A DNA stretch of 64,000 nt from Candidatus Obscuribacterales bacterium (lineage in GTDB: Bacteria > Cyanobacteriota > Vampirovibrionia > Obscuribacterales > Obscuribacteraceae). Shown here piece by piece: positions 12,385-64,000 of the stretch (within the stretch, counting starts at the first letter, position 1; every line of letters begins with the position of its first letter). The translations under genes were made by a program, and so were the position numbers. The DNA lies in NCBI GenBank assembly GCA_019744775.1, contig JAIETZ010000003.1, positions 62,001-126,000 on the forward strand, written 5' to 3'. The notes under the pieces are model-generated. The model did not search any database, had not been told where the DNA came from, and saw nothing but the letters and a program-made list of their open reading frames with translations.

Positions 12385-12410
12385 ATTTTTGGCTTTCTTT
12401 ATGGATTAAG

Positions 12411-12497
12411 ACCGCTGGACACACCCGAAGGTGACAACTTATGGCTGCTGGGTTTCCCCCCTGACCAGGTTCGTTGGTCCTCGCCGTGCCCAACGAT
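12411..12497 (-). ncRNA. ffs: Signal recognition particle RNA (4.5S, small bacterial type)
   Basis: On the minus strand the domain IV signature is clear: GGTCAGG, a GGG-GAAA-CCC hairpin, then AGCAGCC. The ends pair over 10 bases (CGTTGGGCAC near 12486-12495 with GTGTCCAGCG near 12413-12422, counting G-U pairs), closing an RNA of about 85 nt. A perfect TATAAT lies 8-10 bases upstream of the 5' end. The 5' and 3' ends are set by pairing and are approximate. The protein partner ffh is at 52584-54071. Confidence 0.93.
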
Positions 12498-12504
12498 CTG
12501 TATC

Positions 12505-27279: not shown

Positions 27280-27396
27280 GACTGGCGTTAGCAGATGAAG
27301 TGAGGCAAGAGCGGCGATGAGCCGGTCGCGCTGAACGAAGTTGGCAATGCTGGATAGCCAGCGAAGGTGAGGACTTCGTCCGAACCGGAGCATACA
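27280..27396 (+). ncRNA. Candidate structured RNA element, copy A (before tRNA-Ser)
   Basis: Fills the gap between the SRPBCC gene and tRNA-Ser. It shares ordered blocks with 62854-63002: GAC-GG-CGTTA at the 5' side, a GAG-[hairpin]-GTCGC block with hairpin CGGC-GATGA-GCCG (27312-27324), a stem TGGC (27342-27345)/GCCA (27357-27360), the block GCGAAGGTGA (27361-27370), a small hairpin GGA-CTTCG-TCC (27371-27381), and GAACCGGAGC at the 3' end. A TATAAT at 27237-27242 could start transcription. The 3' end lies within 3 bases of the tRNA. Family unknown to me. Confidence 0.65.
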
Positions 27397-27397
27397 G

Positions 27398-27481
27398 GGA
27401 GAGGTACCGAAGTGGTCATAACGGAGCCGCCTCGAAAGCGGATGGGCGCAAGCCACGTGGGTTCGAATCCCACCCTCTCCG
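27398..27481 (+). tRNA. tRNA-Ser(CGA)
   Basis: 84 nt. The acceptor GGAGAGG pairs with CCTCTCC (7 bp), discriminator G at 27481, anticodon loop CTCGAAA giving CGA, long variable arm (GGGCGCAAGCC) typical of tRNA-Ser, and T arm GTGGG-TTCGAAT-CCCAC. CCA is not encoded (GAA follows). The anticodon stem has four good pairs and a G-A at its base. Confidence 0.95.
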
Positions 27482-44805: not shown

Positions 44806-45162
44806 TTAGTCATCCGGCGAAGACAAGCCCTCTTTCCAGAGGTGTTTCGGTAGATCCATTTTTTCTTCGGCGTCGAATTTTATTCCTTCGGACATCAGCA
44901 ATTTCTTCTGCAAGCCAGGCAGAATATTCGGGTTCTTGTGAGTGGAAAGTTTTCCTTGGCTGTTAATTACTCGATGCCATGGCACATTGGTTGCGTTGTA
45001 TTTGCCCGGCTTATTGGGATTTTTTGCAAGTGCTTGCATTGCCCAGCCGACGCCTTGTGCGCTCAAGCGGCCGTTGAGCACATTCGAGATGAGTCCATAG
45101 GTAAGCACTTTGCCTTTGGGTATGCGGCAAACGATTGCGTAGACCTGTTCGTAGACTGACAC
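44806..45162 (-). CDS. Alkyltransferase-like protein (ATL)
   Basis: 118 residues, the C-terminal DNA-binding domain of O6-alkylguanine alkyltransferases. The active-site motif PCHRV reads PWHRVI (Trp62), so alkyl transfer is impossible. This is the hallmark of ATL proteins, which bind O6-alkylguanine and flag it for nucleotide excision repair. KGKVLTYGLISNVL and VGWAMQALAKNP are typical of the helix-turn-helix region. It starts 4 bases after the stop of the upstream membrane protein gene on the same strand. Confidence 0.92.
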   Translation of the reverse strand: MSVYEQVYAIVCRIPKGKVLTYGLISNVLNGRLSAQGVGWAMQALAKNPNKPGKYNATNVPWHRVINSQGKLSTHKNPNILPGLQKKLLMSEGIKFDAEEKMDLPKHLWKEGLSSPDD

Positions 45163-45166
45163 CTAG

Positions 45167-45787
45167 TTAAGGGCTTGCGTCTTGTGGAAGTTCAGGGACA
45201 ACTGACTTGCGTTCTTTAGGAGCCTTGGGATTTGTCTCTGTTACTTCGGCGCCGGCTTTTAATTGTGTTGAAGATGGTTCGAAGTCTTCAGTAATTATTT
45301 CTTGCGCTAATTTGAAAAATCTAGAACCCGGTTCAATTTGTCCTAATTCACGAATAGCGCCTTGCACATCGTTTTGCAATTCAAGTTTATCCATAGCATC
45401 GAGATAGAGAGCTTGATTCAACAACTCTTGCGTATCTGCTCCCGGCATAGCAAATATATTTGGCACAGGTGTGCCGCGCAGTATTGCAATGGCTGCAGGA
45501 TAATTGCGTTGCGTAATGCATTGTTCGGCAGTATGCGTAACGTAGATTTTGAAAAGTCCGATTGAAAAACCGCCGACTGTAATTAAGAGTCCTGCACCAA
45601 GCACAAGATCCAACCACATCGGATGACGGAAGCGTTTGGACGCAGGAATGTCGGGCTCTTCCAATACTTCATCGAGAATTTTTGAGACGTGATGTTGCTC
45701 CAAGTGATGCTCTGCACCACCGGCGTTTTCACCAGTCGACTTATTTAAGTCCTCTTCTGGGGCCCGGTCTGACGTTGAATCAGCCAT
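45167..45787 (-). CDS. Single-pass membrane protein, unknown
   Basis: 206 residues: a charged cytoplasmic N-terminus of about 50 residues with a His-rich patch (EHHLEQHHV), one membrane segment (LDLVLGAGLLITVGGFSIGLF), an extracytoplasmic helical domain (EQCITQRNYPAAIAILRG; DVQGAIRELGQIEPGSRFFKLA) with TPR-like character, and a polar tail. Not recognised. Same strand as the ATL gene, 4 bases apart. Confidence 0.65.
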   Translation of the reverse strand: MADSTSDRAPEEDLNKSTGENAGGAEHHLEQHHVSKILDEVLEEPDIPASKRFRHPMWLDLVLGAGLLITVGGFSIGLFKIYVTHTAEQCITQRNYPAAIAILRGTPVPNIFAMPGADTQELLNQALYLDAMDKLELQNDVQGAIRELGQIEPGSRFFKLAQEIITEDFEPSSTQLKAGAEVTETNPKAPKERKSVVPELPQDASP

Positions 45788-62853: not shown

Positions 62854-63002
62854 GACCGGAGCGTTACGAGTACGGGACCGACGAATCAGCCGAGCGAGAG
62901 CTGCGATGAGCAGGTCGCTGAGAGGCGTGAATAGCAAGGAGAAGGCACTAAATGTGCCTTCGGGCTAAGCGAAGGTGAAGACTTGTCTGAACCGGAGCGT
63001 TA
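62854..63002 (+). ncRNA. Candidate structured RNA element, copy B (dnaK leader)
   Basis: Occupies the dnaK leader. It shares with 27280-27396 the block GCGAGAG-[CTGC-GATGA-GCAG]-GTCGC (62894-62918), stem TAGC (62932-62935)/GCTA (62964-62967), GCGAAGGTGA (62969-62978), hairpin AGA-CTTG-TCT (62979-62988) and GAACCGGAGC at the end. Inside the second stem is an extra hairpin GAAGGCAC-TAAA-TGTGCCTTC. The 5' and 3' edges carry an 11-base direct repeat CCGGAGCGTTA (62856, 62992). The dnaK ribosome site AAGGAG (63005-63010) follows at once. Confidence 0.65.
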
Positions 63003-63020
63003 TTAAGGAGTACACACATA

Positions 63021-64000
63021 ATGGGTAAGTCAGTAGGAATCGACTTGGGCACCACCAACTCTGTGGTCGCCGTGATGGAAGGTGGACAACCGACCGTTAT
63101 TCCTAACGCTGAAGGCGGACGGACAACTCCATCAGTCGTGGCATTTACGAAGTCAGGCGAGCGTCTGGTTGGTCAATTGGCTCGCCGTCAGGCTGTGCTC
63201 AATCCGGAAAACACCGTTTATTCCATTAAGCGTTTCATCGGCAGACGCTTTAACGAAGTTGAATCAGAACGTTCTATCGTTTCTTACAAAGTAAAAGAAG
63301 GCGGCGACGGCGGTTGTAAGGTTTTAATTCAAGGCAAGGATTATACGCCGGAAGAAATCTCCGCAATGATCTTGCGAAAACTCAAAGAGGATGCCGAAAA
63401 ATATCTCGGTGAAAAAGTGTCTTCAGCGGTAATCACTGTACCTGCTTACTTCAATGACTCACAGCGTCAATCAACAAAAAACGCCGGCACAATTGCCGGA
63501 CTTGAAGTTCTGCGTATTATCAACGAGCCAACGGCAGCAGCGCTTGCGTATGGTCTCGACAAAAAAGAAAACGAAACCATTCTTGTATTCGACTTGGGTG
63601 GTGGCACATTCGACGTTTCAGTGTTGGATGTGGGCGATGGCGTATTCGAAGTTAAATCCACTTCCGGTGATACACACTTGGGTGGCGACGACTTTGACCA
63701 CTGCATCGTTGACTGGGTTGCCGACGAGTTTTTGAAGCTGGAAGGCATTGACTTGAGAAAAGATCGTCAAGCTTTGCAGCGTCTGACAGAAGCTGCTGAA
63801 AAAGCGAAGATTGAACTCTCATCGGTTACCGAAACAAATATCTCCTTGCCGTTTATTACCGCTGATGCCAGTGGTCCTAAGCACTTGGACATCAAGTTGA
63901 GCCGCGCAAGATTCAATGAATTAACAAGACATTTGGTTGAGCGTTGCCGCGCCCCCATGGAACAAGCATTGAGAGATGCGAAGTTGACGTATGAACAACT
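63021..64000 (+). CDS. dnaK: Chaperone protein DnaK, 3'-truncated by window edge
   Basis: Hsp70 chaperone. By my own translation the ATG at 63021 opens [20 protein letters not shown], then [34 protein letters not shown] and [15 protein letters not shown], which are the phosphate-1, connect-1 and phosphate-2 regions of the ATPase domain. About 326 residues are visible; the substrate-binding domain is outside. AAGGAG 10 bases before the ATG. No CIRCE repeat is seen upstream; instead the structured RNA element fills the leader. Confidence 0.97.

Follow-up and report, generated by a model that had tools for sequence, protein, structure and literature searches.

Why does the same structured sequence recur at unrelated loci of one genome, directly before a tRNA-Ser gene at one of them and before dnaK at the other? 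The window analyzed here is a stretch of 64,000 nt from a Candidatus Obscuribacterales bacterium, whose own genome (G000) measures 4.1 Mb and is 97.8% complete. A preliminary description of this window had reported ordered blocks shared by the two loci and had interpreted them as a functional noncoding or riboswitch-like RNA rather than a plain DNA repeat. Both copies and the common order of their blocks were confirmed by reading and by alignment, and their boundaries had to be redrawn. Copy 1 occupies positions 27297 to 27397 of the plus strand (R1 covariance model, 90.6 bits, E value of 5.8e-18), leaving the previously included positions 27280 to 27296 outside the element, and the gene for tRNA-Ser(CGA), identified by ARAGORN and Rfam at 27398 to 27481 of the plus strand, begins at the very next base. 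Copy 2 spans 62886 to 63004 of the plus strand upstream of dnaK (R1 covariance model, 57.1 bits, E value of 2.6e-10). Its earlier proposed start, 62854, had included an isolated 3' tail, ACCGGAGCGTTACG, at 62855 to 62868 of the plus strand, which by comparison with the 3' end consensus is probably the remnant of a third, truncated copy.

The element is about 100 nt long and is composed of three hairpins with GAA/GGA internal loops, closing with the end GGAGC-GTTANA. Across the family, hairpin 1 is made up of GC-GAA-GC-AA, a 7-bp stem with a GAUGA loop, and then GC-GAA/GGA-GC; hairpin 2 is GCC-GGAN-GGC; and hairpin 3 runs from GC-GAA-GGU-GAA through a variable stem to GGA-ACC-GGA-GC, with the tail GTTANA next to it. 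By composition, the GAA/GGA internal loops match a run of three sheared G-A pairs, which is a stable motif in RNA. In copy 1, RNA folding and the family structure place hairpin 1 at 27300 to 27336 (outer GU/AC and GGC/GCU pairs, a CGGC/GCCG stem, and the GAUGA loop), the family structure places hairpin 2 at 27349 to 27358 (GCU-GGAU-AGC), and pattern matching, RNA folding, and the family structure together place hairpin 3 at 27361 to 27391 (GC-GAA-GGU, an inner stem GGAC/GUCC, and ACC-GGA-GC), all on the plus strand. The corresponding parts of copy 2, likewise on the plus strand, are hairpin 1 at 62889 to 62926 (CUGC/GCAG stem and GAUGA loop, from the alignment of copies and the covariance model), hairpin 2 at 62933 to 62966 (AGC/GCU with a nested module in its loop, from the alignment, the covariance model, and a survey of modules), and hairpin 3 at 62969 to 62998 (with the end ACC-GGA-GC, from pattern matching and the family structure). 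The compensatory changes reported earlier for helix 1, CGGC/GCCG versus CTGC/GCAG around GATGA, are correct, as are those of the GGA/TCC versus AGA/TCT helix. Helix 2 had been drawn as TGGC/GCCA, but the helix 2 of the family is GCT-GGAT-AGC in copy 1. Nor does the interior of helix 2 vary freely, as had been proposed: the hairpin within it in copy 2 (62936 to 62963 of the plus strand; AAGGAG-AAGGCAC-UAAAU-GUGCCUU-CGG) is a recurring 28-nt module, AAGGAG-stem-TAAAT-stem, which takes the place of loops in some copies and lies on the strand of its host element in all 26 of the 26 copies that carry a like module.

How far does the family extend beyond the window? The core GAACCGGAGC occurs at 31 places genome-wide, compared to 4 for a reversed control, and inspection showed about half of these 31 places to be genuine additional copies in which the blocks occur in the same order. 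The first copies were aligned by hand and folded, and a covariance model was then built from nine copies. Such a search had been suggested as a check in the preliminary description, and it recovered many further copies in the bacterium's own genome and in its relatives, with 108 copies at E<=0.1 in the 4.1-Mb genome and 109 at E<=0.01 in the genome stretches examined. The ends are sharp, information being at background within ~5 nt before GAAGC and ~6 nt after GTTANA in about 200 copies, and these end profiles contain no terminal inverted repeats of the kind that mark MITE and BOX-like elements. Among 4,227 Rfam families scanned against the window, only SRP RNA and tRNA reach the gathering threshold and the element matches none; as anticipated, it has no Rfam counterpart even at permissive thresholds. 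Identity as a C/D snoRNA, raised by the permissive scans, was rejected, as scores of 8.5 to 12.7 bits versus thresholds of 36 to 55 are chance matches. A bacterial small SRP RNA lies at positions 12405 to 12500 of the window, on the minus strand. The open-licence literature that was searched holds no paper on this element family, and the viral contigs hold no exact match to the element. The family is one of small mobile structured repeats that is not listed in Rfam.

The proposal of a conserved secondary structure with compensatory changes is borne out by strong covariation. In the model-fitted alignment of 109 copies, 95.2% of the pair cells are paired and two-sided changes are seen in 23 of 25 pairs, values that 0 of 500 shuffles reach. 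Since the model itself had shaped this alignment, the test was repeated on 40 copies aligned with MAFFT by sequence alone; these copies had originally been found by the structure model and so retain some selection bias. Here, pairing is seen in 92.9% of the pair cells and two-sided changes in 13 of 21 pairs, and the covariation score is 0.388 versus 0.175 in shuffled alignments, with 0 of 500 shuffles reaching the observed score and slid versions giving 0.03 to 0.09. De novo prediction by RNAalifold from the same 40 copies returns the inner part of hairpin 1 along with hairpins 2 and 3, the last with its GAA/GGA loops. The element thus belongs to a structured RNA family, with covariation beyond shuffled controls in an alignment not fitted to the structure.

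Which strand and which nucleic acid does this structure concern? Within the pairs, 75 cells are G-U and 17 are A-C, and this excess of G-U over A-C (75:17) identifies the plus strand as the folded one. Partition-function folding gives mean consensus-pair probabilities of 0.55 for plus-strand RNA, 0.40 for minus-strand RNA, and 0.37 for plus-strand DNA, which favors folding as RNA and not as DNA, with the reservation that DNA parameters may undervalue G-A pairs. Both preferences agree with the functional-RNA side of the original interpretation. Wobble pairs are scarce (~2%), which a single-stranded DNA hairpin could show as well. Antisense copies are 96.4% paired, a figure that is biased by their having been found by structure.

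The element has a narrow phylogenetic range. Two genomes of the same genus, G001 and G002, contain at least 60 copies each (60 candidates were scored per genome), and weaker relatives of the element occur in about a dozen other genera of the same bacterial family. The sister family and other families of the class yielded no copies, and of 386 genomes sampled over the phylum under strict filters, with few candidates scored per genome, none but the bacterium's own genome matches. A search for the exact pattern in 84,980 species genomes returned two assemblies only, one a Candidatus Obscuribacterales bin and the other a bin labelled Chloroflexi, and these are G001 and G002. The SBAT01 assembly (G002) was deposited as a Chloroflexi bacterium, yet it belongs to the same genus as the Obscuribacterales genome studied here. 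Sister genera carry related versions, some of them as tandem arrays. In one sister genus, head-to-tail arrays with a period of ~108 to 111 nt are found at L211:1220-1600 (G026:C13) and on other contigs of G026, one of them before the start of a glmS-like gene. Overall, the element is lineage restricted and confined to one bacterial family.

Comparison of orthologous sites reveals gain or loss of single copies. G001 and G002 are ~90% and ~80% identical to G000, respectively, and flank matching covered about one-third of the genome. Among the G000 copies with both flanks in the examined relatives, the element is absent in 6 of 22 (G001) and in 13 of 35 (G002); reciprocally, G000 lacks 10 of the 26 copies compared from G001 and 19 of the 39 from G002, with a gap that is mostly <=60 nt. 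Overall, roughly one-third to one-half of the comparable copies are found in one genome and missing from another. One such empty site lies within the window at 45159 to 45168, for which flank matching shows the orthologous G002 locus to be occupied by a copy (L184:10643-10742). Variable occupancy of orthologous sites, combined with constant ends, makes the element a small interspersed mobile repeat. The contrast originally drawn with a plain DNA repeat does not hold: the family is a repeat and mobile, a given orthologous site may hold a copy in one genome and lack it in another, and the copies occupy the different types of gaps roughly in proportion to the frequency of each. Flanking direct repeats of 205 copies resemble those of shuffled pairings except for one 15-nt case (L164:8158) and one tandem pair. 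Some clean insertions have partial flanking repeats of 6 to 14 nt, and across the copies as a whole, target duplication does not rise above shuffles. The best identity between paralogues is 88%, and near-identical recent copies are lacking. With neither general target-site duplication nor near-identical copies, it is only from presence and absence that we infer transposition, and loss, or replacement by recombination, could lie behind part of this pattern. At some orthologous gaps, the element stands in opposite orientation in two genomes (L121:10291 versus L192:6905, L129:10004 versus L164:1651, and L092:12761 versus L158:6665), reflecting either inversion or independent insertion.

Copies that do remain in place change in a structured manner. 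In 17 orthologous copy pairs of at least 80% identity, the changes in base pairs comprise 17 compensatory, 8 wobble, and 6 broken ones, so that the fold is kept at individual sites, either by local selection or by conversion from other copies. Some orthologous copies differ by swaps of a whole stem or of an apical module, and it seems that standing copies can have their modules exchanged. Between L139:9342-9468 and L206:6448-6547, which represent the same locus and element, the loop of hairpin 1 in one is replaced by a longer nested hairpin.

Does the element favor particular genes or positions? With genes called by a simple longest-frame rule, copies divide among co-directional, divergent, and convergent gaps as 67:27:14, compared to 329:145:91 for gaps overall; a preference for terminators or promoters was rejected, since these proportions agree with those of gaps in general. 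In co-directional gaps, a sense bias is evident, with 50 copies oriented with the genes and 17 against them. About a quarter of all copies are antisense or convergent. By GC skew, copies show no bias toward one replication strand (60 of 109). Six copies stand directly upstream of tRNA genes (Ser, Ser, Lys, Ile, Ala, and Val). At L104:14629-15006, two copies and the genes for tRNA-Ile and tRNA-Ala follow one another in alternation, ~3 kb upstream of a gene for 23S rRNA. The downstream genes scanned include those for L1, L4, L13, L25, S2, and S12 as well as prfA, smpB, nusB, fabF, carA, nrdB, dnaX, and radA, and about 22 of 40 are core genes versus 1 to 2 of 17 random genes, as classed by eye. 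Antisense copies adjoin core genes too (GroEL and NrdA), and therefore the core-gene excess is not solely about sense leaders.

The spacing between the terminal GGAG of the element and the next gene falls into two classes. Among 106 copies followed by a downstream frame of at least 90 aa, the start codon comes 6 to 10 nt after GGAG in 35 (exactly 8 nt in 19 of these) and 15 to 25 nt after it in 43 (20 nt in 12 of these), but 11 to 14 nt after it in only 3. The tail in the 6- to 10-nt class, e.g., GTTANATATG, has no other ribosome-binding site, and elements of the 15- to 25-nt class are usually followed by a native AGGA or GGAG. The latter is the case at dnaK, where AAGGAG at 63005 to 63010 of the plus strand, between copy 2 and the ATG at 63021, is the gene's own ribosome-binding site. 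The void between the two spacing classes is expected if a working site must remain. In copy 1, the terminal GGAG lies inside hairpin 3 at 27387 to 27390 of the plus strand, and the spacing histogram of the 106 copies places the same motif at ribosome-binding-site distance in other copies. This spacing suggests that the GGAG of the element serves as a ribosome-binding site.

A GGAG 6 to 10 nt ahead of 35 starts and within hairpin 3, the sense bias, the share of core genes downstream (e.g., L1, prfA, and carA), and compensatory changes in place are all traits that a host-serving cis-regulatory RNA would have, be it a translation leader or an RNA thermometer, selected upstream of housekeeping genes and dispersed only secondarily. 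We consider this unlikely, since roughly a quarter of the copies are antisense or convergent and are paired equally well, tRNA neighbors have no need of a ribosome-binding site, the element is missing at many orthologous loci, and core genes also lie beside antisense copies. As general explanations, a riboswitch, a leader of a common regulon, and an RNA thermometer were rejected on account of the antisense, convergent, and tRNA-adjacent copies and the unrelated downstream genes. The riboswitch-like character assigned earlier is likewise not upheld, as ~26 to 31 of 108 copies oppose the next gene and the downstream genes share no common pathway.

If the element is mobile, what moves it? The Y1 transposase (PF01797) is absent from G000, G001, G002, G010, and G026, with control genomes positive; the reverse transcriptase (PF00078) is absent from G000, at 97.8% completeness, and from G010 and is present in G001 and G002; and neither an IS110 nor a DDE_1 transposase is detectable in G000. 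A retrotransposed (SINE-like) or a Y1 element was rejected, as G000 is without the corresponding enzymes. One weak, short resolvase-like frame (123 aa; G000:C1:839869-840219) is common to all three members of the genus, with a similar one in the carrier genome G010; it is a possible mobilizing partner, a lead only. High-copy, intergenic structured repeats with genus-specific versions, as described for REPs (PMC3116915, PMC3733652), along with rare wobble pairs and presence or absence between genomes, would also be produced by a REP/REPIN-type element, a hairpin of single-stranded DNA that owes its mobility to a Y1 (RAYT) transposase. Such an origin is improbable given that PF01797 was not found in G000, G001, and G002 while controls were positive, that the element bears no GTAG or CGTC tag and measures ~100 nt rather than 20 to 40, that folding prefers RNA to DNA, and that the replication strands are used without bias. 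Spread that needs no dedicated enzyme, with existing copies engaging in recombination, gene conversion, or template switching, would suit a genome almost devoid of transposases, the tandem copies and the arrays in sister genera, and orthologous copies that can diverge further than the flanking sequence and be distinguished by entire modules. We regard it as very unlikely, because constant-ended insertions are seen where relatives have no copy, and one such insertion (L164:8158) is flanked by a 15-nt duplication.

The observations are probably best explained by a new, lineage-restricted family of non-autonomous mobile elements of ~100 nt, in which the unit of selection is the folded sense-strand RNA with its three hairpins and GAA/GGA loops. 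A putative enzyme would recognize the folded strand and insert copies into intergenic gaps. Copies would persist where their neighbors are spared, that is, downstream of a stop codon or upstream of either a tRNA or a start codon; in the last position, either the native ribosome-binding site would be left intact or the element would supply its own GGAG, and a copy of the latter type would provide the gene with both its 5' leader and its ribosome-binding site. With GGAG predicted to lie inside hairpin 3, the element may dampen or modulate translation. A further reading, which we hold to be quite doubtful, is that of a SINE-like bacterial mobile RNA, whose folded transcript would itself be the recognized intermediate. 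The enzyme moving it would belong to none of the known families of transposases and reverse transcriptases, and the RNA would equip housekeeping genes and tRNAs with ready-made leaders and ribosome-binding sites. Small structured repeats are usually seen as Y1-linked DNA hairpins or as inverted-repeat relics of insertion sequences, and the family described here has neither trait. With a ribosome-binding site at the very end of the element, an insertion could give a core gene a new leader. Two questions are thereby made testable, namely, the spread of non-autonomous repeats in a nearly transposase-free genome and the turning of repeats into translation leaders, and a clear, searchable RNA family is added to a poorly known sister lineage of the cyanobacteria.

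How does this family compare with known systems? Rickettsia palindromic elements are mobile structured repeats of ~100 to 150 nt without a known enzyme; they are single palindromes, often in frame within genes, whereas the element described here is mostly intergenic and has multiple hairpins. Integron attC sites conserve structure over sequence, and the element resembles them in the GTTA at its 3' end; identity with an attC site was rejected, as there is no matching RYYYAAC box at the 5' end and no cassette arrangement. To our knowledge, neither the GAA/GGA loop architecture nor a ribosome-binding site at the end has an equivalent in ERIC and RU-1. These elements of enterobacteria are intergenic mobile repeats of a comparable kind, ~127 nt long, and have been described as resembling miniature inverted-repeat transposable elements (PMC2229807, PMC2759123). 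REPs are palindromes of 20 to 40 nt tagged with GTAG or CGTC, the GTAG type being linked to Y1 transposases (PMC3733652, PMC2817692). The element shares with REPs and REPINs its high copy number, intergenic location, structure, genus-specific versions, and non-autonomous nature, but it is ~100 nt long, untagged (its ends are GAAGC at the 5' side and GGAGC-GTTANA at the 3' side), and found in a genome without a Y1 gene. Pneumococcal BOX elements are modular repeats, small and interspersed, whose predicted RNA structure is strong; they are lineage restricted and slow to insert and likely affect cotranscribed genes, and in BOX and RUP the terminal inverted repeats pair in the fold (PMC3049150). 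The present element is likewise a small, modular interspersed repeat with strong predicted RNA structure and a restricted lineage, and it probably shares with them the slow insertion and an influence on cotranscribed genes; it differs from BOX and RUP in having no terminal inverted repeats and no related insertion sequence that could be found, and in possessing three separate hairpins with GA internal loops and a terminal GGAG. Although their defining tests (inverted repeats, tag, and Y1 enzyme) fail for the element, BOX elements and REPs are its closest relatives in kind (PMC3049150, PMC3733652, PMC3116915).
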